A stretch of DNA of 64,000 nucleotides, from positions 62,001 through 126,000 of IMG/VR virus record IMGVR_UViG_3300021425_000008. One strand, written 5' to 3'. Of the stretch, positions 691 to 59,496 are shown one piece after another. The DNA comes from a virus. The stretch's first letter is position 1. Every line of letters starts with the position of its first letter. The position numbers and the translations under genes were made by a program. The notes under the pieces were generated by a model. That model was given only the letters and a program-made list of their open reading frames with translations. It had not been told where the DNA came from and did not search any database.

Positions 691-720
691 GTTAGTAACC
701 ACCAAACGTCACTATTATTG
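691..720 (+). promoter_or_regulatory. Early promoter cassette, copy 1
   Basis: GTTAGTAACC at 691-700 is followed by CAAACGTC and TATTAT (713-718). It is the most degenerate -10 of the set. The ATG of the following gene lies at 734, outside the cassette. Confidence 0.6.
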
Positions 721-733
721 TAAGACACACATT

Positions 734-943
734 ATGAACAATTCTTCTCAAATTCTGCGTGAACTTCAGGAACTCCGTAAATCGTGGAGGGCACAAAACT
801 TCAACTACACTGTCAATCAACAGTCACGATATGATGAGTTGATGATGCTCCGTCGCGCATTTATTGCTAAGTGGCAAGAAGATGGCCTGGTCTGGAAAGG
901 CCCATCTAACGTTGGCAAAGCTTCTACCGTGACTGCAGAATGA
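734..943 (+). CDS. Small conserved-type cyanophage protein, function unknown
   Basis: 69 aa, probably helical (ILRELQELRKSWRAQ), charged, with no Cys pair or membrane segment. It is the first gene behind cassette copy 1, and its stop overlaps the next start (ATGATGA). I do not recognise a function. Confidence 0.55.
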   Translation: MNNSSQILRELQELRKSWRAQNFNYTVNQQSRYDELMMLRRAFIAKWQEDGLVWKGPSNVGKASTVTAE

Positions 944-1263
944 TGAAATTTGATTCTTCTAACACCGAAACATTCACTGTTGATGGTACTGAATTCCAGT
1001 TCAATACTGATCGAGTTCAGTACATCGCTGAAGAACAAATTGATCATTATGAAACACGAGTCAAGCAACTTGCCAAGAGTCTGAAGAAGAAAAAGAACAA
1101 AGAACAGCTGTCAAATGATATTGTTGCTCTCTATCAAGAGTGGAATGTGAAAGATAACGATGAGATTCTTTATCTGTTGTTCTCTAAAGACAATGAAGAC
1201 ATCTTCACCGATGTAACTACAGAGAATGATCTTTATGCCAATCCTGAGGAACCAATTGCATGA
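940..1263 (+). CDS. Hypothetical protein, acidic with a lysine-rich core
   Basis: 107 aa. A beta-like N-terminus (FTVDGTEFQF) is followed by a helix with a run of lysines (SLKKKKNKEQ, about residues 48-57) and a strongly acidic C-terminus. The start overlaps the previous gene by 4 nt and the end overlaps the next ATG by 4 nt, so three genes form one coupled unit. Function unknown. Confidence 0.6.
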   Translation: MMKFDSSNTETFTVDGTEFQFNTDRVQYIAEEQIDHYETRVKQLAKSLKKKKNKEQLSNDIVALYQEWNVKDNDEILYLLFSKDNEDIFTDVTTENDLYANPEEPIA

Positions 1264-1340
1264 TTGCACTTTTCAAATACTTCTATTATGTTTTTCTTGG
1301 TTGTATTGTGATGATGATCGTCAAACTATTGGCGAATTAA
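1260..1340 (+). CDS. 26-aa single-span membrane peptide
   Basis: Starts in an ATGA overlap with the upstream gene and encodes MIALFKYFYYVFLGCIVMMI followed by VKLLAN. Almost the whole peptide is one hydrophobic helix with one Lys near each end. The tight coupling and clean membrane-span composition support it as real, but it is very short. Confidence 0.45.
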   Translation: MIALFKYFYYVFLGCIVMMIVKLLAN

Positions 1341-1341
1341 A

Positions 1342-1370
1342 GTTAGTAACCTCCAAATGTCCACTTTAGT
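1342..1370 (+). promoter_or_regulatory. Early promoter cassette, copy 2
   Basis: GTTAGTAACC starts at 1342 and TTTAGT lies at 1365-1370. An ATG follows immediately at 1371, but a second in-frame ATG at 1389 lies where copy 4 has its only start. Confidence 0.65.
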
Positions 1371-1388
1371 ATGAACAACACTTCCGCT

Positions 1389-1727
1389 ATGAAAACTCAA
1401 ACTAAAGGTGAGTTTCTCTCTGATTGTCTGATTGAAACTCTCAACGACATGTGGAAAGTTAATTCTCTTGAAAACAGTCGTAATTCATATCAACAACTTG
1501 AATGTGAAGTTGGACGCAAATATGTAAAGATCTGGGATTATCTTGTGAGTGATGGTGAGAGAGTCCGTGGACGTTCTTGCTGGATGTTTGTAGATAAGGA
1601 AACTGGTTCCTGCTATAAACCTGCCTCACACAAAGCACCAGCAGTTGGTATCAGGTATCAGATCGAAGATCTTATCGAATCTCCTATGATTTGCGACCCA
1701 TATGGGTCATTCTTGTACCTGAAATAG
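1389..1727 (+). CDS. Conserved-type cyanophage hypothetical protein
   Basis: 112 aa. The segment GRKYVKIWDY, then SCWMFVDKETG and CYKPASHKAPA, looks like a small beta-rich domain that I have a sense of seeing in other T4-like cyanophages, without a known role. The frame also has an ATG at 1371, but that codon directly abuts the -10 box and would lie upstream of or at the expected transcription start, so 1389 is preferred. Confidence 0.6.
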   Translation: MKTQTKGEFLSDCLIETLNDMWKVNSLENSRNSYQQLECEVGRKYVKIWDYLVSDGERVRGRSCWMFVDKETGSCYKPASHKAPAVGIRYQIEDLIESPMICDPYGSFLYLK

Positions 1728-1739
1728 GTTGGAATTAAA

Positions 1740-1768
1740 GTTAGTAACCTCCAAATGTCTCCTATAGT
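1740..1768 (+). promoter_or_regulatory. Early promoter cassette, copy 3
   Basis: GTTAGTAACCTCCAAATGTC with TATAGT at 1763-1768. It is one of the best matches to the group consensus. Confidence 0.7.
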
Positions 1769-1783
1769 ATGAACAACACTCCA

Positions 1784-2011
1784 ATGACTCTCACCGAACG
1801 AAACCAAAAGCTTTACGACTTGCGTCAGAAACTCGACAAAGCTCGTGCAGAAGTTGCATGGATCGAACAAGAGATCTGGCTTGTTAAGGATCAATACGAT
1901 CGTCAAGATCTTGATCTCTTCCAGGAAATGTTTGGCGAGAAAAACACACTGTGGGATCATCTTGATCGCATGAGTGACACTCCCATGGCCGAAGAAGTCT
2001 ACGGAGGTTGA
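1784..2011 (+). CDS. Small helical protein, unknown
   Basis: 75 aa, predicted coiled coil in the first half (LTERNQKLYDLRQKLDKARA), with an acidic C-terminus. An upstream in-frame ATG at 1769 abuts the -10 box of cassette copy 3, so the second ATG is preferred. An ACGGAGGT ribosome-binding site for the next gene is embedded in its end. Confidence 0.6.
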   Translation: MTLTERNQKLYDLRQKLDKARAEVAWIEQEIWLVKDQYDRQDLDLFQEMFGEKNTLWDHLDRMSDTPMAEEVYGG

Positions 2012-2012
2012 T

Positions 2013-2171
2013 ATGGCTTACCCTCTCGGCATTGATAACCCTATTCTGATCAAAGGTGTGATTGGTTCACACAAATGGGCATTGTATTGGCGTGAAGACA
2101 TGACCAAGATTGCCACATTTAATTCGCAGTTCCAAGCATACGAAGCCCGTCGTTTTCTTCTCTCCAAATAA
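2013..2171 (+). CDS. 52-aa hypothetical protein
   Basis: The ATG at 2013 follows GGAGG by 6 nt and lies just after the upstream TGA. The product (AYPLGIDNPILIKG...HKWALYWREDM) has two tryptophans and a basic C-terminus (YEARRFLLSK). An in-frame ATG at 1974 lies inside the previous gene and is less likely. Function unknown. Confidence 0.55.
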   Translation: MAYPLGIDNPILIKGVIGSHKWALYWREDMTKIATFNSQFQAYEARRFLLSK

Positions 2172-2329
2172 TGAACCAACTCGAAATGTTGTCTGCCCGT
2201 GAACAACTCATGGAAGACATTGATTGTATCATCACTGATTACTTTGCACAGTTTGATGTCAATTATGACGAAGAACTTGTGAAGATTTTGTGTGATGCCG
2301 TCTGTAACAACTTTCCTACACAAAAATGA
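2171..2329 (+). CDS. 52-aa acidic hypothetical protein
   Basis: The start overlaps the upstream stop (TAATGA). The product is acidic and helical (ARE QLMEDIDCIITDYFA) with three cysteines. Its stop overlaps the next start as ATGA. Unknown function; supported mainly by tight coupling on both sides. Confidence 0.5.
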   Translation: MNQLEMLSAREQLMEDIDCIITDYFAQFDVNYDEELVKILCDAVCNNFPTQK

Positions 2330-2499
2330 AACTATCTAAAGCACAAGTTATTCGTGTGGTCAGAGATACTGCGTTGAATGTTGATAAGAACCTCACACGA
2401 GAAGAGAAACAACAAGTCTTCAATAATGTGGTCGATGGTCTACATCGTGACGGAAGAATCACGAAGAAACAACAAATGGCATGGACACATCCGTTCTGA
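2326..2499 (+). CDS. 57-aa basic hypothetical protein
   Basis: ATG in a 4-nt overlap with the preceding gene. MKLSKAQVIRVVRDTALNVD then a helix-rich stretch with LTREEKQQVF and a basic segment (RDGRITKKQQ). It could be a small nucleic-acid-binding helical protein, but no family was recognised. Confidence 0.5.
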   Translation: MKLSKAQVIRVVRDTALNVDKNLTREEKQQVFNNVVDGLHRDGRITKKQQMAWTHPF

Positions 2500-2504
2500 T
2501 TATT

Positions 2505-2533
2505 GTTAGTAACCTCGAAATGTCCCCTATAGT
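2505..2533 (+). promoter_or_regulatory. Early promoter cassette, copy 4 (decides start codons)
   Basis: GTTAGTAACCTCGAAATGTC with TATAGT at 2528-2533. Here the abutting codon is GTG followed by TAG, so no gene can start at the box. The leader GGAACCACTCAACCAC then leads to an ATG at 2553. This copy shows that the ATG touching the box in other copies is not required. Confidence 0.75.
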
Positions 2534-2552
2534 GTAGGAACCACTCAACCAC

Positions 2553-2876
2553 ATGCGTAAGATCGAAACCCTGATGAACGAAGCAGTTGCCAACAACAAA
2601 GATTGGCAATCTTCCAACACCAGTGTTACCTACAACGAAGAGAATGATGTCTCTATTGTTCGTCTTCACGGTAACAAGATCGCAGAGATTGGTGATGACT
2701 ACCTTCAGATCTTTGATGGCGGTTGGCAATCCAACACCACCAAATCACGTCTGAATGCACTCATCAACCGTTTCTGCAATGCAGTCACTGATGGTGTATT
2801 TCAGAAGGATTATGTTTGGTACGTTCGTGACAACAACGTGACCAAAGAATTTACTTCTGGTTACATCTTTGCCTAA
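2553..2876 (+). CDS. Conserved-type cyanophage hypothetical protein
   Basis: 107 aa. Two-part beta domain: VTYNEENDVSIVRLHGNKIA, then DGGWQSNTTKSRLNALI, then YVWYVRDN. The W..NTTKSRLNAL pattern seems familiar from cyanophage small proteins, with no assigned activity. The start is unambiguous because the cassette upstream provides no other in-frame ATG. Confidence 0.65.
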   Translation: MRKIETLMNEAVANNKDWQSSNTSVTYNEENDVSIVRLHGNKIAEIGDDYLQIFDGGWQSNTTKSRLNALINRFCNAVTDGVFQKDYVWYVRDNNVTKEFTSGYIFA

Positions 2877-2886
2877 GATGACTCAC

Positions 2887-2912
2887 GGAGAGACCAACAC
2901 TCTCTCCCTATA
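2887..2912 (+). terminator. Weak hairpin after the 107-aa gene
   Basis: GGAGAG at 2887-2892 pairs with CTCTCC at 2902-2907. The run that follows (CTATAGTTTT) is only moderately T-rich, so termination may be partial. Confidence 0.35.
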
Positions 2913-2942
2913 GTTTTCCCTTCATTCTTTACATTCTTTCTA

Positions 2943-3137
2943 ATGAAAACCACCACAAAAAGTACTAATCACAAAGTTGAATTTGATTCGTCCGAATATA
3001 TTCTTTTGATGGATATGCTCTCAGATGTTATTAACAATGATGGTAAATTAGATGATGATTTGATGGATTATATTAACACTGATAGTGATAACAATGCCTT
3101 TAATTCTCTCCATTATAAACTCATGCAAGCGATGTAA
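2943..3137 (+). CDS. 64-aa acidic hypothetical protein
   Basis: MKTTTKSTNHKVEFDSSEYI followed by a very acidic, Asp/Asn-rich helix. No cassette precedes it; the leader is pyrimidine-rich (CATTCTTTACATTCTTTC). No known family. Confidence 0.5.
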   Translation: MKTTTKSTNHKVEFDSSEYILLMDMLSDVINNDGKLDDDLMDYINTDSDNNAFNSLHYKLMQAM

Positions 3138-3155
3138 TCTTGTTCCCTCTTTTTT

Positions 3156-3398
3156 ATGTCTTTCATCGCACATTACACTGATCCAATGACTCTCACTCCT
3201 CAACAACTTGAAAATCTAAAGAGTGACTATGCCTGGCAAATTGTCGATGGTATGGATCTCAAAACACTTTGCCAGTGGGCAGCAGAACAAATTGAAGCAA
3301 ATATGAAGGATTACGATGAGACTGACCTGCAAGAAGAGATTAGTGATATGATGGGCGAAGATGTATGGGAGGACATGAAGAAAGATGCAATCGGGTGA
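3156..3398 (+). CDS. 80-aa conserved-type cyanophage protein
   Basis: Acidic helical protein: LTPQQLENLKSDYAWQIVDG, then DLKTLCQWAAEQI and a C-terminal acidic helix. A second ATG at 3186 (MTLTPQQ) could be the true start. It overlaps the next gene by 14 nt. Function unknown. Confidence 0.55.
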   Translation: MSFIAHYTDPMTLTPQQLENLKSDYAWQIVDGMDLKTLCQWAAEQIEANMKDYDETDLQEEISDMMGEDVWEDMKKDAIG

Positions 3399-3585
3399 TA
3401 TAGTAGAATTCAAGGGAGCATCACGATGGCAAGTGTTATGGGCATCGACTGATTATCCATCACATCTTATCATTGGTAAACGCTATGTTGTGGAGAGTGT
3501 ACACACTTATCCATGGTTCACAAAGATCACATTAGAACACAAGTCTGGTCAGTTCAATTCAGTTCATTTCACAAAAGTATCATGA
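3385..3585 (+). CDS. 66-aa putative small beta-barrel protein
   Basis: GDIVEFKGASRWQVLWASTD then a strand-rich remainder (LIIGKRYVVESV, ITLEHKSGQF). The pattern suggests an SH3-like or OB-like fold, which is inference only. It overlaps genes on both sides (14 nt before; ATGA with the next). Confidence 0.5.
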   Translation: MQSGDIVEFKGASRWQVLWASTDYPSHLIIGKRYVVESVHTYPWFTKITLEHKSGQFNSVHFTKVS

Positions 3586-3716
3586 ACAAGTTCACTGTCA
3601 CACTCGAAATTGAGACCTATTCTGATGATCCAGAAGATTGGATTATTGACAGCATCTCCGAGAATCTTGAGGATGATGAACAAATTACGAGCATAAACGT
3701 TCAGTTACAAAGTTAG
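3582..3716 (+). CDS. 44-aa acidic hypothetical protein
   Basis: ATG at 3582 overlaps the upstream TGA. The product, beginning MNKFTVTLEIETYSDD, is a strand followed by an acidic helix. An alternative start upstream at 3513 lies fully inside the previous gene. The last codons overlap cassette copy 5. Function unknown. Confidence 0.5.
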   Translation: MNKFTVTLEIETYSDDPEDWIIDSISENLEDDEQITSINVQLQS

Positions 3717-3745
3717 TAACCTCGAAAGGTCCACAGTAGTATAAG
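3712..3745 (+). promoter_or_regulatory. Early promoter cassette, copy 5 (divergent -10)
   Basis: GTTAGTAACCTCGAAAGGTC starts at 3712. At the usual -10 place it has AGTAGT, with TATAAG at 3740-3745 as an alternative. A 32-nt tandem repeat follows instead of a gene start. Confidence 0.55.
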
Positions 3746-3749
3746 AGTC

Positions 3750-3807
3750 GGACTTCTCTCACCTGATTGCTTCTCCGAATAGGACTTCTCTCAGGTGATT
3801 GTTTCTC
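3750..3807 (+). repeat. Tandem direct repeat, two copies, period 32
   Basis: GGACTTCTCTCA..TGATTG.TTCTC occurs at 3750-3775 and again at 3782-3807. The copies differ at three positions (CC/GG and C/T). They lie in the leader between cassette copy 5 and the membrane-peptide gene. Confidence 0.7.
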
Positions 3808-3836
3808 TGGCTCACAAGCTTTTCTTTTTTTCCATC

Positions 3837-3980
3837 ATGAAAATCGCACTTCTGATTGTTGTTGGTATTCTGTTCTGGACGAGTGATGATGCACGAAACT
3901 TCACCGCAGATCAACTCAACAATGCAAGTGAAATTGTGCGGCCTGATGTTGAGAAGAAAGTCTTCAGCATTAGTTTCTAA
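3837..3980 (+). CDS. 47-aa membrane-anchored or exported small protein
   Basis: MKIALLIVVGILFW forms one hydrophobic segment (residues 2-14), followed by a polar tail (TADQLNNASEIVRPD). It could be a signal anchor. An in-frame GTG at 3795 would add 14 residues across the direct repeat and is less likely. Confidence 0.5.
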   Translation: MKIALLIVVGILFWTSDDARNFTADQLNNASEIVRPDVEKKVFSISF

Positions 3981-3984
3981 TCTT

Positions 3985-4013
3985 GTTAGTTACCTCCAAA
4001 CGTCCCCTATAGT
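3985..4013 (+). promoter_or_regulatory. Early promoter cassette, copy 6
   Basis: GTTAGTTACCTCCAAACGTC with TATAGT at 4008-4013. The downstream leader (ACATGACTCAAACCACGATG) is nearly identical to that of copy 9. Confidence 0.7.
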
Positions 4014-4034
4014 ATGAACATGACTCAAACCACG

Positions 4035-4268
4035 ATGACCAACGAAACTTACAACGGTTGGGCAAATTACGAGACCTGGAATGTGGCTCTCTGGCTTGGC
4101 AATGACGAGGGTATGTATCGAATGGCTCGTATGTATCGCCATCATGGTTATAAGTCTCTGAGCCATATGTTGGAAGAATCTTATGGCTCAGTCACGCCTG
4201 ATGGTGTATATTGGAAACACGCAGATCTTGATATTGACGAACTGAACGAAATGCTGGAGGATCTTTGA
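4035..4268 (+). CDS. DUF7249-like protein
   Basis: 77 aa from the preferred ATG at 4035 (84 aa if 4014 is used). The N-terminal YNGWANYETWNVALWLGNDE is the hallmark of a small conserved family of phage proteins that I associate with DUF7249. The rest is helical with an acidic C-terminus. Its molecular role is unknown. ATGs at 4014 and 4020 lie in or next to the promoter. Confidence 0.65.
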   Translation: MTNETYNGWANYETWNVALWLGNDEGMYRMARMYRHHGYKSLSHMLEESYGSVTPDGVYWKHADLDIDELNEMLEDL

Positions 4269-4270
4269 TC

Positions 4271-4549
4271 ATGAATGCACCTGAGTTCGCCACATCTAAT
4301 CTGTCAAAGATCCGTCCTAAACTTCGTACTCAAGGCAATGTGACTGGTAACTTTGGAAGACCAAAAGTCAAAGCCGCAAACAATCAACAACTCGGATATA
4401 CCAAGAAAGATCACATTAACATGATCACCTGTAAGGAAGATTATATTGCCAAAATGTATCAGATCCTGGATACTACTGATGATCAAAAGATTCGTAACTT
4501 TGCCTATTCAGAAATCAAGAAGTATTTGATACAAACTGGCCAATGGTAA
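4271..4549 (+). CDS. 92-aa basic hypothetical protein
   Basis: ATG at 4271, two bases after the upstream TGA (a TTG at 4265 is also in frame). The N-terminal half is basic and low in hydrophobics (LSKIRPKLRTQGNVTGNFGR); the C-terminal half is helical. It may bind nucleic acid, but no family was recognised. Confidence 0.55.
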   Translation: MNAPEFATSNLSKIRPKLRTQGNVTGNFGRPKVKAANNQQLGYTKKDHINMITCKEDYIAKMYQILDTTDDQKIRNFAYSEIKKYLIQTGQW

Positions 4550-4553
4550 TAAA

Positions 4554-4582
4554 GTTAGTAACCTCCAAATGTCTTCTATAGT
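4554..4582 (+). promoter_or_regulatory. Early promoter cassette, copy 7
   Basis: GTTAGTAACCTCCAAATGTC with TATAGT at 4577-4582. It is the only copy in which no in-frame ATG is found just downstream of the box-proximal ATG. Confidence 0.7.
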
Positions 4583-4807
4583 ATGAATACAACTCAAGCT
4601 CTCTCAATTCTCTCTGAACAGTTCAACGCTACTTACACAGGTTCTAAAACAGTTCGTGAAATGTGTTCTAATCTGATCGATGCATGTTATTGGGATAAGG
4701 AAGATCCCAACACTGTATATCATCAGTTTAAGACTCAAGATGGTATGCCAAATCGTATTGTTGAAGATAGTCAAATCATCTCTCTTGCTCTTTCCTATTC
4801 CAACTAA
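4583..4807 (+). CDS. 74-aa hypothetical protein
   Basis: MNTTQALSILSEQFNATYTG then a helical domain with two cysteines. The box-proximal ATG is used here for lack of a nearby alternative; an unusual start codon inside ACTCAAGCTCTCTCAATT cannot be excluded. Function unknown. Confidence 0.55.
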   Translation: MNTTQALSILSEQFNATYTGSKTVREMCSNLIDACYWDKEDPNTVYHQFKTQDGMPNRIVEDSQIISLALSYSN

Positions 4808-4809
4808 TT

Positions 4810-4968
4810 ATGCTCTTTAATTGTGACATTGCCTGGTATGATAGCAAAGGTAGGAGACACACTACAACGATTGAATCTGATCGAACAGATAGAGACTTTA
4901 TCCGTCAATTAGTCGAAGCTCGTTATCCTACATCTAAGGTCATTATCAACCGAGTCTATCAAAAATGA
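4810..4968 (+). CDS. 52-aa basic hypothetical protein
   Basis: MLFNCDIAWYDSKGRRHTTT then a charged remainder ending VIINRVYQK. It begins two bases after the previous stop, and its composition suggests a small alpha/beta fold. No family was recognised. Confidence 0.45.
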   Translation: MLFNCDIAWYDSKGRRHTTTIESDRTDRDFIRQLVEARYPTSKVIINRVYQK

Positions 4969-5012
4969 ACCGTTAATTTATCCCCTTCGGGTATCCATTC
5001 ATTTCATTCATT

Positions 5013-5180
5013 ATGAATCATCACATTTACCATCTAAGGAACACTGAGCTAGATCAGGATTTAGCTCTTATGTTATCACCTATTATAGCTGCCTATCGTC
5101 CCCATGATGACATCCCCAGTAAGGAACAATTAGGTGATCCCATACAACGAGCTACCTGTAATCCTTTCACTAATGTATAA
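5013..5180 (+). CDS. 55-aa hypothetical protein
   Basis: MNHHIYHLRNTELDQDLALM then SPIIAAYRPHDD and a Cys near the C-terminus. The leader is T-rich with a short CCC-TT-GGG hairpin. It is followed by a strong hairpin, which supports a real transcription unit end. Function unknown. Confidence 0.4.
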   Translation: MNHHIYHLRNTELDQDLALMLSPIIAAYRPHDDIPSKEQLGDPIQRATCNPFTNV

Positions 5181-5186
5181 CGAGTG

Positions 5187-5240
5187 ATAGCTAGATTTAA
5201 CCCCTAAAATAAGGTCTAAATACTAGCTATTGCCTTTTTT
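5187..5240 (+). terminator. Long hairpin with T-run
   Basis: ATAGCTAG at 5187-5194 pairs with CTAGCTAT at 5223-5230. An inner ATTTA/TAAAT pair extends the stem, and TGCC then TTTTTT ends at 5240. It is well placed to end the transcript of the 55-aa gene. Confidence 0.65.
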
Positions 5241-5490
5241 ATGCCAAATAAATGGCTAATTAAATATAAGCTAATGTTTGCGCTAAGTTACTACAAAGGG
5301 GCTACAGAGTGACTCGCTAGGTACTCATGGGTGCTTAAAATGGCTGATCTTATAGTCATCTAAGATCGTATTCTATCAGACCTTCTGCATAATGTCAACC
5401 CCCAAATCCTGTCAAATCACTAATCCTTATCTGTCATAAATCTCCGAGTCCTCAGAGACACATAAGAGGGTCTTATTTTCCGCCATTATT
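5241..5490 (+). other. Non-coding gap with an inverted repeat
   Basis: No convincing gene is seen here. GATCTTA (5346-5352) and TAAGATC (5361-5367) form a perfect 7-bp inverted repeat around TAGTCATC. No T-loop or D-loop signature of a tRNA was found. An ORF on the opposite strand (5427-5732) is an antisense shadow of the next gene and was not called. Confidence 0.4.
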
Positions 5491-5519
5491 GTTAGTAACC
5501 TCGAAAGGTCTTCTACAGT
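5491..5519 (+). promoter_or_regulatory. Early promoter cassette, copy 8
   Basis: GTTAGTAACCTCGAAAGGTC with TACAGT at 5514-5519, preceded by the non-coding gap. Confidence 0.65.
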
Positions 5520-5534
5520 ATGAACACAACTCAA

Positions 5535-5729
5535 ATGCATAAGTTCAACATCTACGGTGAGTTTATCCGCCCTAATGGTCATCAACAGTATGACATTCTG
5601 AGCTACATTGCCGAGACAAGAGAAGAGGCAATTGCTACATGTAGGAAGAACAATCCTCACTTCAACATTATCACAATTCAGGTAGATGATACAGCACCTG
5701 AGGTAGTGAGAATGCAACCCCTTATATAA
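5535..5729 (+). CDS. 64-aa hypothetical protein
   Basis: MHKFNIYGEFIRPNGHQQYD then a helix with one Cys (REEAIATCRKNNP) and a strand (FNIITIQVDDTA). This beta-alpha-beta layout resembles small cyanophage accessory proteins. The ATG at 5520 touches the -10 box, so 5535 is preferred. Confidence 0.55.
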   Translation: MHKFNIYGEFIRPNGHQQYDILSYIAETREEAIATCRKNNPHFNIITIQVDDTAPEVVRMQPLI

Positions 5730-5799
5730 CACTTACTACATGACCTGATGATGTCATTAAACCCATCACACATACACACACTATTTCACACAAACTCTC

Positions 5800-5940
5800 A
5801 TGTCCCGTTCTGTTCTCATTGGTCTGCTGCGTAAGGGAAAGACTGGTGAAGAAGTCCTTGCTATCTTGGACGCCATTTGTAACAACGAAGAACCACAGAT
5901 TGAGAAGAGCTATGGTACACTCGAACCCCTGACATTCTGA
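5800..5940 (+). CDS. 46-aa conserved-type cyanophage peptide
   Basis: MSRSVLIGLLRKGKTGEEVL then AILDAICNNEE and a short tail. It looks like one amphipathic helical hairpin. I recall similar SRSVLIGLLRKG-type peptides in T4-like cyanophages, but no function is known to me. Confidence 0.5.
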   Translation: MSRSVLIGLLRKGKTGEEVLAILDAICNNEEPQIEKSYGTLEPLTF

Positions 5941-5950
5941 GGGTATTATT

Positions 5951-5979
5951 GTTAGTTACCTCGAAATGTCCCCTATAGT
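5951..5979 (+). promoter_or_regulatory. Early promoter cassette, copy 9
   Basis: GTTAGTTACCTCGAAATGTC with TATAGT at 5974-5979. It is the last copy found in the window. Confidence 0.7.
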
Positions 5980-6000
5980 ATGAACATGACTCAAACCACA

Positions 6001-6228
6001 ATGGTTAACACTTTCACTGAGAACTTTGACATCATGGGTGATATGACCATCGATGAACTTATCTCGTTCGTTGATATCAACCCCGTGTCAGTTGTTCACT
6101 CTCCCTCTCCAAATTGTTCGGAGTCTTATGACATCACCTTCAAAACATTTGAAGACATGATGACATTTACCAGAGGATACTTTGGAGACTACAGTGATAC
6201 CGAGATCCGTGAAGTTATGGGTTGGTAA
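6001..6228 (+). CDS. 75-aa hypothetical protein
   Basis: MVNTFTENFDIMGDMTIDEL, then a central YDITFKTFEDMMTFTRGYFG and a C-terminal helix. ATGs at 5980 and 5986 are too close to the -10 box. Function unknown. Confidence 0.55.
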   Translation: MVNTFTENFDIMGDMTIDELISFVDINPVSVVHSPSPNCSESYDITFKTFEDMMTFTRGYFGDYSDTEIREVMGW

Positions 6229-6278: not shown

Positions 6279-6308
6279 TTGACACTTAGAGGGGTTATAT
6301 GGTAGACT
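6279..6308 (+). promoter_or_regulatory. Candidate sigma70 promoter
   Basis: A perfect TTGACA at 6279-6284, 18-nt spacer, then TAGACT (4 of 6 to consensus) at 6303-6308. It would transcribe the structured leader of the 73-aa gene. Confidence 0.45.
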
Positions 6309-6488
6309 GACAGTGTATCGATTCGACAGTGTTTTTGGCGGGTCGTTGATACCGCGGGGACCGCAAAGAGCCCCCCCTTAAAAGAAATTGCGGCAACTCT
6401 AACCTACAAAGGTCCCCAAACGGCCTTAAGAAAAGCCGCCGATAAAAAAAATTTCTATATAAAAAATTCCCCCATAAAGATTTTCCAT
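6309..6488 (+). other. Structured non-coding leader
   Basis: 180 nt without a gene. It holds a direct repeat GACAGTGT (6309-6316 and 6325-6332), a GC-rich stretch, a hairpin CCGCAA/TTGCGG (6361-6366 with 6388-6393), and a second hairpin CGGC/GCCG (6421-6424 with 6435-6438), followed by A-rich sequence. Either a structured 5' leader or a small RNA is possible. Confidence 0.4.
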
Positions 6489-6739: not shown

Positions 6740-6768
6740 TTGACAGAGTACTACATAATTGGTATAAT
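6740..6768 (+). promoter_or_regulatory. Perfect consensus sigma70 promoter
   Basis: TTGACA at 6740-6745, exactly 17 nt, then TATAAT at 6763-6768. Both hexamers match the bacterial consensus fully. It lies 29 nt before the glycosyltransferase start. Confidence 0.85.
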
Positions 6769-41418: not shown

Positions 41419-43083
41419 ATGGCAAGTGACGTATATCTTGGTAATCCCCTTCTTAAGAAGGCGAATACACCGATTGAATTTACTAAAGAACAAATTGAAG
41501 AGTATATTAAGTGTAAGGACGACCCAGTTTACTTTGCACAAAATTACGTCCAGATTGTAACCCTGGACCATGGTCTTCAACCATTCAAGACCTATGACTT
41601 TCAGGAAAAGTTAATTAAAAACTTCCACGAGAACAGATTTAATATCTGTAAGATGCCTCGACAGACTGGTAAGTCTACAACGTGTGTGTCTTATCTTTTA
41701 CACTACGCAATTTTCAATGATAGTGTTAATATAGGTATCCTGGCAAACAAGGCAACGACTGCTAGAGAACTTCTTTCAAGACTTGCCACAGCATATGAAA
41801 ACCTCCCGACATGGATGCAACAAGGAATCTTGGTCTGGAATAAAGGAAACATCGAATTAGAAAATGGCAGTAAGATATTGGCAGCTTCTACGTCTGCAAG
41901 TGCTGTCCGAGGCATGTCGTTTAACATTCTCTTCCTCGACGAATTTGCCTTCGTTCCAAATCATATTGCAGATGCGTTCTTTGCCTCTGTTTATCCTACT
42001 ATTACTTCTGGTAAATCAACGAAGGTAATCATCGTCTCTACCCCACACGGTATGAATCACTTCTACCGTATGTGGCATGATGCGGAGAAGGGTGCAAACG
42101 AATATGTACCGACAGACGTTCATTGGTCAGAAGTTCCTGGTAGGGATGAAGTCTGGAAAGAACAGACTATCAAGAACACATCTGAACAACAGTTCAAGAT
42201 TGAGTTTGAGTGTGAGTTCCTAGGATCTGTTGATACTCTGATTGCACCTAGTAAATTAAAAGCACTTGTTTACGATAATCCTCTGACACAAAATGCTGGA
42301 CTTGATGTCCACGAACAACCTAAGAAGGAAAATGACTATGTAATTACCGTTGACGTTGCAAGGGGTGTTGGAGAGGATTACTCTGCATTCATCGTTGCCG
42401 ACATTACAACATTCCCACATAAAGTAGTTGCCAAGTATCGTAATAATACGATCAAACCAATGTTGTTCCCCAATATCATCTGGGAAGTTGCCAAGTCATA
42501 TAACAATGCATTCATTCTCTGTGAGGTCAATGACATCGGAGATCAGATTGCTTCAATTCTTCAATACGATCTTGAGTATCAAAACCTTCTCATGTGTGCC
42601 ATGAGAGGTAGAGCAGGTCAAGTTGTTGGACAAGGGTTTTCTGGAACTAAAACACAACTTGGCGTCAAGATGTCTAAGACTGTCAAGAAGGTGGGATCAC
42701 TCAACCTGAAGACTATGATTGAAGAGAATAAGTTGTTGTTGAATGATTACGAGATTATATCAGAATTAACTACATTTATTTCGAAAGGAAACTCTTTTGA
42801 AGCGGAAGAAGGATGTAATGATGACCTTGCTATGTGTTTGGTCATCTATGCATGGTTGGTAGCTCAAGATTACTTTAAAGAACTGACTGATCAGGATGTC
42901 AGAAAGAGATTATATGAAGAACAAAAGAATCAAATCGAACAGGACATGGCTCCATTTGGTTTCTTGAATGACGGTCTTGATGATGGGGTATTTGTTGACA
43001 ATGAGGGAGATAGATGGACCTCTGCTCCAACATATGATGAATATGGAAACACTGCTGGTGGTTGGACTCTTTGGGATTACTAA
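41419..43083 (+). CDS. 17: Terminase large subunit gp17
   Basis: 554 aa (T4 610 aa). DHGLQPFKTYDFQEKLIKNF leads into the Walker A RQTGKST (residues 81-87) and Walker B ILFLDEF (Asp174, Glu175). The C-terminal nuclease has VITVDVARGVGEDYSAFIVA with its first metal-binding Asp, then CEVNDIGDQI and a later CNDDLAMCLVI. It drives DNA packaging into the prohead and cuts the concatemer. In T4 it directly follows gp16; here 3.4 kb intervenes. Confidence 0.95.
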   Translation: MASDVYLGNPLLKKANTPIEFTKEQIEEYIKCKDDPVYFAQNYVQIVTLDHGLQPFKTYDFQEKLIKNFHENRFNICKMPRQTGKSTTCVSYLLHYAIFNDSVNIGILANKATTARELLSRLATAYENLPTWMQQGILVWNKGNIELENGSKILAASTSASAVRGMSFNILFLDEFAFVPNHIADAFFASVYPTITSGKSTKVIIVSTPHGMNHFYRMWHDAEKGANEYVPTDVHWSEVPGRDEVWKEQTIKNTSEQQFKIEFECEFLGSVDTLIAPSKLKALVYDNPLTQNAGLDVHEQPKKENDYVITVDVARGVGEDYSAFIVADITTFPHKVVAKYRNNTIKPMLFPNIIWEVAKSYNNAFILCEVNDIGDQIASILQYDLEYQNLLMCAMRGRAGQVVGQGFSGTKTQLGVKMSKTVKKVGSLNLKTMIEENKLLLNDYEIISELTTFISKGNSFEAEEGCNDDLAMCLVIYAWLVAQDYFKELTDQDVRKRLYEEQKNQIEQDMAPFGFLNDGLDDGVFVDNEGDRWTSAPTYDEYGNTAGGWTLWDY

Positions 43084-57528: not shown

Positions 57529-57809
57529 TGTTTATCATTACAGTTGCTGGTAAAGAAAAGGACGGTGCATACTCTGTGGTTGATGAGTCTGGGGAACAAG
57601 TCCTTTATATCTTCTGTGACGAAGACGACGCAGAAAGATATGCCTTACAACTGGAAGAACTTGACTACCCCGAGATGAATGTGTTAGAAGTAGAAGATGA
57701 GATAATGATCAAGACCTGTGAGATGCATGATCACAGGTACACTATTATAACCACTGACGATATTGTGATCCCTCCTGATTCTGAATATGATAGTTTTCAA
57801 AAAAATTAA
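57528..57809 (+). CDS. DUF3110-like protein
   Basis: 93 aa. VLYIFCDEDDAERYALQLEE, then LDYPEMNVLEVEDEI and a C-terminal IVIPPDSEYDSF match the pattern of DUF3110, a family otherwise of cyanobacteria and plastids. It sits between gp47 and gp46 and overlaps gp46 by 23 nt. The function of the family is unknown. Confidence 0.65.
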   Translation: MFIITVAGKEKDGAYSVVDESGEQVLYIFCDEDDAERYALQLEELDYPEMNVLEVEDEIMIKTCEMHDHRYTIITTDDIVIPPDSEYDSFQKN

Positions 57810-59496
57810 GTGGCAGAATTTTTTATCAACCGGCAATCATCCCACAGAAGTTAATTTAAACGAGGGGAACACCACTCTGATCATCGGTTCGAATGGTGCT
57901 GGTAAGTCCACCATTCTTGATGCACTGACTTTTGTTTTGTATGGTAAGTCTTTTCGTAAGATCAACAAGGGACAGTTGATCAACTCTACGAATGAGAAGG
58001 CTTGTCTCGTCGAGATTGAGTTTGATGTGAACTCTGTAAACTGGAAGATTCAACGTGGGATCAAACCAAACATCTTCAAGATCTATCGTAACGATGAGGA
58101 GTTGGATCAGTCCGCATCAGCAATTGATCAACAGAAGTGGTTGGAACAGAATGTTCTGAAGATGAACTACAAGTCATTCACACAGATTGTGATTCTTGGT
58201 TCTTCGACCTTTGTTCCGTTTATGCAACTTCCTGTCTCCTCACGTAGAGAAGTTGTAGAAGATCTATTGGACATTAAGATCTTCTCCTCGATGAATGATG
58301 TGATCAAGGGAAAGATTCGTAATATTCGTGAACAGGTCAAGACTCTGGAACTGAAGAAAGAGAACTTGAAAGATAAGGTTGATATGCAAAAAGACTTTAT
58401 CGATAAGATCGAGAGTCAGAGTAAGGATGACATCAAGACACGGATGGATAAGATCGAAACTCTGAATCAAGAAATTGAAAGATGTTTCAAACAGAGTTTT
58501 GAACAAGAAGAAGTATTGGAATACTTACAGAAAGAATTAAAATCTGTTGACAATGCTCAAGAGAGACTGAGAGAGTTTGGTAGTATCAAAGGTAAACTGT
58601 CTCAACGTATACAAAGTATTGTCAAGGAACATAAATTCTTCACAGAAAATACGGTATGTCCTACCTGTGACCAAGATATTGAGGAGTCGTTTCGAGTAAA
58701 TAGAATTAGTGACTCCCAATCTAAAGCAGAAGAGCTCCGAGAGGGTTATGAAAAACTTCAATCGGCTATTAAAGACGAAGAATTGAGGGAGTCACATTTC
58801 AAAACTCTATCCTCTAAAATTTCAGAAACACTTAATGACATTTCTTCTTTCAATGTACAGATCTCTGGTTTTCAACGACAGATCAGCGGACTGGAATCAG
58901 AAATTCAAACTGTTACCAGTCAGCTCGAGAACAGAAATACTGAGCATGAGAAGTTAGAATCCTTACACAGTAGTCTTGATAAGACATACGATGAACTGGT
59001 AGAGCACAAAGACAATATTTCCTACCACGATTTCATCTATAGTCTTCTTAAAGACGGTGGTGTAAAAGCAAAGATCATCAAAAAGTATCTACCCCTTATT
59101 AACCAACAAGTTAATAAGTATCTACAGATGATGGACTTTTACATCAACTTCAAACTTGACGAAGAATTCAACGAAACCGTAGAGTCTCCCATTCACGAAG
59201 ATTTTTCTTACGCATCTTTTAGTGAAGGGGAGAAGATGAGAATTGACCTGTCACTTCTATTCACCTGGAGGGAAATTGCAAGGGTCAAGAACTCAGTCAA
59301 TACAAATCTCCTGATTATGGATGAAGTCTTTGATAGTTCACTAGATGGTTTTGGAACCGATGAGTTCCTTAAAATTATTCGATACATCATCAAGGACGCA
59401 AACATATTCGTTATCAGTCACAAGACTGGTATGGATGATAAGTTTGATTCAGTCGTCAAGTTCGAAAAACATAAAGGTTTCTCAAGAAAAATTTAA
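57787..59496 (+). CDS. 46: Recombination nuclease ATPase subunit gp46 (Rad50/SbcC type)
   Basis: 569 aa (T4 560 aa). Walker A GSNGAGKS (34-41), a long coiled coil interrupted by a zinc hook CPTC near residue 290, ABC signature FSEGEKMRIDLSLLF and Walker B LLIMDEVFDSS. The start lies inside the DUF3110 gene. A complete Rad50-like protein. Confidence 0.93.
   Translation: MIVFKKIKWQNFLSTGNHPTEVNLNEGNTTLIIGSNGAGKSTILDALTFVLYGKSFRKINKGQLINSTNEKACLVEIEFDVNSVNWKIQRGIKPNIFKIYRNDEELDQSASAIDQQKWLEQNVLKMNYKSFTQIVILGSSTFVPFMQLPVSSRREVVEDLLDIKIFSSMNDVIKGKIRNIREQVKTLELKKENLKDKVDMQKDFIDKIESQSKDDIKTRMDKIETLNQEIERCFKQSFEQEEVLEYLQKELKSVDNAQERLREFGSIKGKLSQRIQSIVKEHKFFTENTVCPTCDQDIEESFRVNRISDSQSKAEELREGYEKLQSAIKDEELRESHFKTLSSKISETLNDISSFNVQISGFQRQISGLESEIQTVTSQLENRNTEHEKLESLHSSLDKTYDELVEHKDNISYHDFIYSLLKDGGVKAKIIKKYLPLINQQVNKYLQMMDFYINFKLDEEFNETVESPIHEDFSYASFSEGEKMRIDLSLLFTWREIARVKNSVNTNLLIMDEVFDSSLDGFGTDEFLKIIRYIIKDANIFVISHKTGMDDKFDSVVKFEKHKGFSRKI

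Follow-up and report, generated by a model that had tools for sequence, protein, structure and literature searches.

What reads a sequence unit that recurs nine times within a few kilobases (kb) of a cyanophage sequence, always in the same orientation and nearly always in front of a tiny gene? The question is raised by bases 62001-126000 of the virus record IMGVR_UViG_3300021425_000008 (record length, 141,061 bases), a stretch of 64,000 nucleotides (nt) referred to here as the window, which belongs to a T4-like cyanophage with the Synechococcus phages S-B05, RB11-B, RN05-S, S-SM2 and Bellamy as relatives. Judging from its sequence, the unit (hereafter, the cassette) is a real, widespread and constrained element, and most likely forms a second promoter class, with a box for a lineage-specific regulator. 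All nine copies listed in the initial annotation lie where it had placed them, on the plus strand and with 0 mismatches to GTTAGTNACCNCNAAANGTC (Table 1). Scanning the 64-kb window for GTTAGTNACCNCNAAANGTC with up to 3 mismatches gave 10 matches, of which the 9 exact ones all lie on the plus strand within the first 6 kb. The number expected by chance is 0.62, and 0 of 100 shuffles of the window sequence reached 10, which places the motif far above the background frequency. The excess holds for exact and full-length matches, but not for the short GTTAGTNACC with 1 mismatch (17 vs 12.2 expected). That no copies follow after 6 kb was likewise borne out, the sole extra match being on the minus strand at 43065 with 3 mismatches.

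The edge of the window splits the block, and 4 further copies were found at record positions 58423, 59364, 60002 and 61617, which makes 13 copies in the whole record, confined to 10 kb (58.4-68.0 kb) of one strand, with no copy on the minus strand. In S-SM2, SynMITS9220M01 and RB11-B the sites also form a single block on a single strand. The annotation had all copies preceding tiny unknown genes, which is right for nearly all of them; the exceptions are the copy at 58423, followed by a gene of ~300 amino acids (aa), and that at 3712, which lies ~90 nt before an open reading frame (ORF). The label "early" was given to the block from its position alone.

Each copy opens with a left box of 10 base pairs (bp; GTTAGT[AT]ACC); 3 nt separate it from a right box (AAANGTCNNC), and a hexamer that resembles a -10 (TATAGT) comes last. 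Counted from the G of GTTAGT, the hexamer begins at an offset of 23 nt in 13 of 13 record copies, 10 of which have TATAGT, TTTAGT, TACAGT or TATATT there, and 3 ATTATT or AGTAGT. For the window, the offset to TATAGT, TTTAGT or TACAGT is found in the seven of nine copies for which it had been described, and the other two hold ATTATT (691) and AGTAGT (3712) at the same distance. A search of IMG/VR for exact matches to the upstream part alone, leaving the hexamer unconstrained, retrieved 98 stretches with 252 distinct copies, and TATAGT stands at the hexamer position in 146 of them. This set is further characterized by a C just 5' of the hexamer, R-T-R after it, an A/T-rich ATTA-like stretch 5' of the box, and an enrichment of C at 6 nt and of A at 7 nt beyond the hexamer, where -1 and +1 would be expected.

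The new element of this analysis is the comparison of the cassette across IMG/VR contigs and the isolates S-SM2, SynMITS9220M01, RB11-B and P-TIM68. The right half is largely common to all of them, whereas the left box is uniform among the copies of one phage and changes from phage to phage. In RB11-B, RN05-S and S-B43, ATTACTCACC replaces GTTAGTAACC in nearly all copies; SynMITS9220M01 has [AG]TTACTCACC and S-SM2 AGGGGGGTCG, in both cases followed by an AAAG[TC]GTCCC-like sequence and TATAGT; and the Prochlorococcus phage P-TIM68, with ten copies, has the box GTTAGTTACC in common with the window phage. When IMG/VR was scanned by the right half alone, with the left side free, many different left boxes appeared among at least 120 stretches. 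Left-box identity in loci with at least 4 copies is 0.93 within the locus and 0.46 when copies are permuted among loci (maximum of 200 permutations, 0.49); a first count on loci with at least 3 copies had given 0.91 within and 0.43 between, and the sequence outside the unit stays at background identity both within loci and after permutation. Consensus boxes number 42 among the 167 loci in which a box could be called, and they fall into 8 groups when boxes with 2 or fewer differences are chained. Only two of their positions are nearly fixed, the fifth (G in 35 of 42) and the ninth (C in 41 of 42). The left part and the right part are combined independently of each other, since GTTAGT pairs with AAANGTCNNC in the window, AAAGTGTCCC in loci L140 and L147 and AAATTGANTT in P-TIM68, and the TTACTC box with both AAANGTCNNC and AAAGTGTCCC. 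One foreign box each occurs in 6 of 63 loci, which looks like the import of a gene together with its cassette. Uniformity within a genome together with rewriting between genomes is how the site of a phage-specific regulator would be expected to look, and suggests that the gene block is controlled by a different switch protein in every phage lineage. The extra protein contact that the initial annotation had proposed gains weight from the same pattern and from the chance-level frequency of the motif in bacterial genomes.

Is this, then, a promoter of a known type? Ordinary TTGACA/TATAAT-type promoters are present elsewhere in the genomes of all phages examined. These phages thus do not lack -35 elements in general; it is in the cassette that the -35 is replaced. 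A TTGACA- or GTTTAC-like -35 at 16-18 bp was not found in the cassettes, the boxes of relatives including AGGGGGGTCG and AACTGAAGCC; GTTAGT had already been judged a poor -35, and the left box is indeed not a σ70 -35, relatives holding GGGGGG, ACTGAAGCC and others in its place. The layout resembles that of T4 middle promoters, in which the MotA box lies 12±1 bp upstream of the -10 (PMC2988021): both would combine a host -10 with a ~10-bp phage box for the -35, at a matching distance (13 bp in the cassette) and in many copies. Unlike in T4, where MotA acts together with AsiA by sigma appropriation, the cassette boxes differ by lineage and are unrelated to the MotA consensus (a/t)(a/t)(a/t)TGCTTtA, and the spacer is also conserved, so that membership of this class is put forward as a likeness only. 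T4-like early promoters are comparable in that their consensus shifts slightly from one phage to the next and that they often precede ORFs that are novel (PMC1524935), but they retain a GTTTAC-like -35, where the cassettes have unrelated boxes.

We consider it about an even chance that the cassettes are host-polymerase promoters in which the place of the -35 is taken by a binding site for a regulator that is encoded by the phage, specific to its lineage and probably an activator. They would thus form a second promoter class for the host RNA polymerase, with the TATAGT hexamer serving as -10 and the 10-bp box, 13 bp upstream of it, bound in place of a -35 by a phage protein whose DNA specificity differs by lineage. 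The AAANGTC or AAAGYGTCCC stretch between them would provide a second contact, common to the lineages. By analogy with T4 middle promoters, where the MotA box stands for the -35, the regulator would most likely be an activator, and activation would turn on the small accessory genes of the block together, as a single regulon. More tentatively, and with the odds somewhat against it, marine T4-like cyanophages might have a diversified promoter code for a co-regulated set of accessory genes, with dozens of versions of the -30 box, each with a cognate, co-evolving regulator; relatives infecting the same cell would then leave each other's blocks unread or actively silence them.

Several observations weigh against the proposed activator-dependent promoter. 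No regulator of the left box was identified among the cassette-phage genes examined, and MotA domains (PF09114, PF09158) were found in 0 of 9 cassette phages (G000 and G003 being incomplete records), with the T4 control matching. Within the unit, the A at hexamer position 2 is conserved at 0.79, below the expectation for a σ70 -10, and in the copies where an ATG directly abuts the hexamer it lies upstream of the start predicted 6-7 nt past it. A phage sigma factor as the reader of the cassette was looked for as well: region 4 (PF04545) gave only a sub-threshold match in one phage, with all 14 control genomes matching. Cyanomyoviruses have been reported to be without motA, asiA, alt and mod (PMC2984593).

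The gene with the best association with the cassette lies upstream of the window (record G000, 57634-58266) and encodes a basic protein of ~200 aa. It occurs in 10 of 11 cassette phages and in 0 of 12 phages with no cassette seen (Fisher p 1e-5, a value that ignores relatedness and includes some of the 12 phages whose early block was only partly read). Used as a lead, it allowed the cassettes of P-TIM68 and AG-345-O18 to be found, and its matches are limited to 10 of 50,697 phage records, nearly all of them cassette phages. It is a candidate only, because S-B43 has eight cassettes without it and AG-345-E15 has the protein with no cassette within 16.8 kb. Its structural model, mostly of low confidence, predicts a C-terminal helical hairpin and no clear DNA-binding fold, and we take its MKTxxxF N-terminus to resemble the capsid-targeting leaders of T4 internal proteins. 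Other candidates were rejected: phylogenetic incongruence (RB11-B is like SynMITS9220M01, with the same box) led to a 67-69-aa protein also present in the cassette-less Bellamy; the best-ranked by protein/box co-variation across contigs, a 70-aa helical protein (partial rho 0.53) that Bellamy has too and small families that other cassette users lack, were unconvincing; and phrog_21741 occurs also in cassette-less phages.

Could the bound protein be of a different kind, or be dispensable altogether? A host transcription factor is very improbable. Phages can use host regulators, as the predicted NtcA sites of cyanophages illustrate (PMC3037559), but across 84,980 genomes of bacteria and archaea (257 billion bases) the motif is no commoner than chance would have it: exact matches occur in 17 stretches, 0 of 17 followed by the hexamer and 0 of 17 named Synechococcus or Prochlorococcus; besides, box type is independent of host genus, P-TIM68 having the same GTTAGTTACC as the window phage. 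The left box might instead be an operator, at which a lineage-specific phage repressor shuts the promoters after first expression and blocks those of superinfecting relatives, an unlikely reading but one to be taken seriously. Operators and stoperators of cluster A mycobacteriophages are likewise many asymmetric, one-orientation sites in short intergenic gaps with a genome-specific consensus, and one DNA-binding domain of their repressor varies more than the other, as one half of the cassette is variable and one shared (PMC9283540, PMC6550527). An immunity arms race would also fit the diversification of boxes among relatives. Nevertheless, these T4-like cyanophages are lytic, and the cassette copies are attached to a -10-like hexamer instead of occupying promoter-free positions, with no -35 for an unaided polymerase. 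Nor was a repressor found: none of the candidates has a recognised DNA-binding domain, and their ranking by protein/box co-variation gave no clear factor. No dedicated protein would be needed if the cassettes were ordinary σ70 early promoters copied with their genes and kept alike by recombination, the left box being a passenger, which we consider unlikely. T4-type phages have PeSL (promoter early plus stem-loop) cassettes. These are also repeated between small genes of a hypervariable block and seemingly mobile with them, and in the cyanophages the dispersed direct repeats within a gene-shuffling block, the foreign boxes (a sign that cassettes move between phages) and the MN.T N-terminal codons recurring after six window copies point the same way. 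On the other hand, terminator-like stem-loops in the block are at chance (4 sites vs 3.7 expected), and the box is rewritten genome-wide between relatives. Moreover, box positions -12 to -4 (counted from AAA) have identities of 0.90-1.00 within loci, whereas the three bases after the box (-3 to -1) and positions +3, +7, +8 and +16 have 0.65-0.83; conversion would level all of them, and this interleaving of constrained and freely varying positions argues for base-specific protein contacts rather than recombination alone, although copying may act as an additional force alongside selection. An RNA hairpin joining the left and right boxes was seen by eye in GGGGGG types only and is not general, and the cassette block contains no Rfam match.

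A further alternative concerns the transcript start. In the P-TIM68 copies, the hexamer is followed by 6 nt, AAGGA and ATG, a layout that fits a standard start 6 nt past the hexamer. In the 629 copies found by the right half, the bases after the hexamer are mostly GTA (240), ATG (211) or ATA (90), but GTG in only 12, and an ATG abuts the hexamer in 6 of 9 window copies; given a start 6-7 nt past the hexamer, such an ATG falls outside the message. Yet the frame from it is open in 197 of 211 copies (37% for the other main types), and in one orthologous gene the N-terminus that this ATG encodes is retained even by phages without the cassette, which makes the ATG a true start codon in that gene. 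This selection on the abutting ATG would be explained if transcripts started within TATAGT (a start on the G of TATAG would be T7- or SP6-like) or before it, or if the unit were an RNA processing or translation element, giving near-leaderless messages. T7, T3 and SP6 promoters are uniform per phage, with a phage-dependent specificity box and CTATAG near the start. Still, we regard such an origin as quite improbable: T7-type RNA polymerase (PF00940) had no match in the 9 cassette phages, with the T7 control matching, cassette conservation extends further upstream than in those promoters, and besides the P-TIM68 layout, most other copies have their start codon 15-25 nt further downstream. In 93 of the 197 open-frame copies a second in-frame ATG follows 15-18 nt on, like the start-codon distance in most other copies, so the first ATG may serve read-through messages and the second those initiated at the promoter; this does not explain the remaining open-frame copies.

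Table 1. Cassette copies, the ORFs that follow them and an ordinary promoter for contrast (window coordinates).
Feature	Position	Strand	Description
Cassette copy 1	691..719	+	box GTTAGTAACC, ATTATT at hexamer position
ORF after copy 1	734..943	+	69 aa, PHROG 3262 (unknown function)
Cassette copy 2	1342..1370	+	TTTAGT; abutting ATG of ORF 1371
ORF after copy 2	1371..1727	+	118 aa, DUF7717
Cassette copy 3	1740..1768	+	TATAGT; abutting ATG of ORF 1769
ORF after copy 3	1769..2011	+	80 aa, PHROG 19748
Cassette copy 4	2505..2533	+	TATAGT
ORF after copy 4	2553..2876	+	107 aa, Kyano_Gp96
Cassette copy 5	3712..3740	+	AGTAGT; no ORF directly after
Cassette copy 6	3985..4013	+	box GTTAGTTACC, TATAGT; abutting ATG of ORF 4014
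ORF after copy 6	4014..4268	+	84 aa
Cassette copy 7	4554..4582	+	TATAGT; abutting ATG of ORF 4583
ORF after copy 7	4583..4807	+	74 aa
Cassette copy 8	5491..5519	+	TACAGT; abutting ATG of ORF 5520
ORF after copy 8	5520..5729	+	69 aa
Cassette copy 9	5951..5979	+	box GTTAGTTACC, TATAGT; abutting ATG of ORF 5980
ORF after copy 9	5980..6228	+	82 aa
Contrast σ70 promoter	6740..6768	+	TTGACA-17-TATAAT, ordinary class, before ORF 6797

Downstream of copy 5 (window 3741-3838), the place of a gene is taken by ~90 nt that contain a pair of similar direct repeats (GGACTTCTCTCACCTGATTG / GGACTTCTCTCAGGTGATTG), possibly a small RNA or a leader. Among the genes that follow cassettes, a family with a MKNTHLEHPEDSILTGDLSV-like N-terminus and a KxDG motif, presumably a ligase-like nucleotidyltransferase, recurs in dozens of phages (loci L128, with SSM2_070, L129, L413, L392 and many IMG/VR loci). 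Other repeated elements were observed nearby and in relatives. The corresponding block of the cassette-less cyanophages ACG-2014f, S-SSM7 and P-SSM2 (L409-L413) and Bellamy (L399-L401) contains TGTG[AC]CA-N9-TGGCACA inverted repeats, ~35-40 nt upstream of TATAAT or TATACT and with the look of a CRP/NtcA-type palindrome, and clade-specific repeated units are found in S-SCSM1 (GTTCCTTTGACTCTTATAGAATACAGG; L403-L405, minus strand) and S-CAM9 (GGCCCTACAATAGCCACAT; L468, L470). The intergenic region 6279-6480 of the window, with a TTGACA promoter-like site and ATTCGACAGT ... CTAACCTACAAAGGTCCCCAAACGG, a stretch that recurs partly beside the same gene in RB11-B, S-SM2 and Bellamy, had no Rfam or tmRNA match and is a possible noncoding RNA.

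Early and middle transcription of cyanomyoviruses, which reportedly lack MotA, AsiA, Alt and Mod, has been called unclear (PMC2984593). A promoter class with phage-specific boxes would provide a concrete regulon and, as the site is known, a route to its regulator, with the natural box changes between relatives serving as a genetic experiment. Furthermore, the cassette offers a sequence signature by which uncultured cyanophages can be grouped, and the foreign boxes (6 of 63 contigs) one of imported gene modules.

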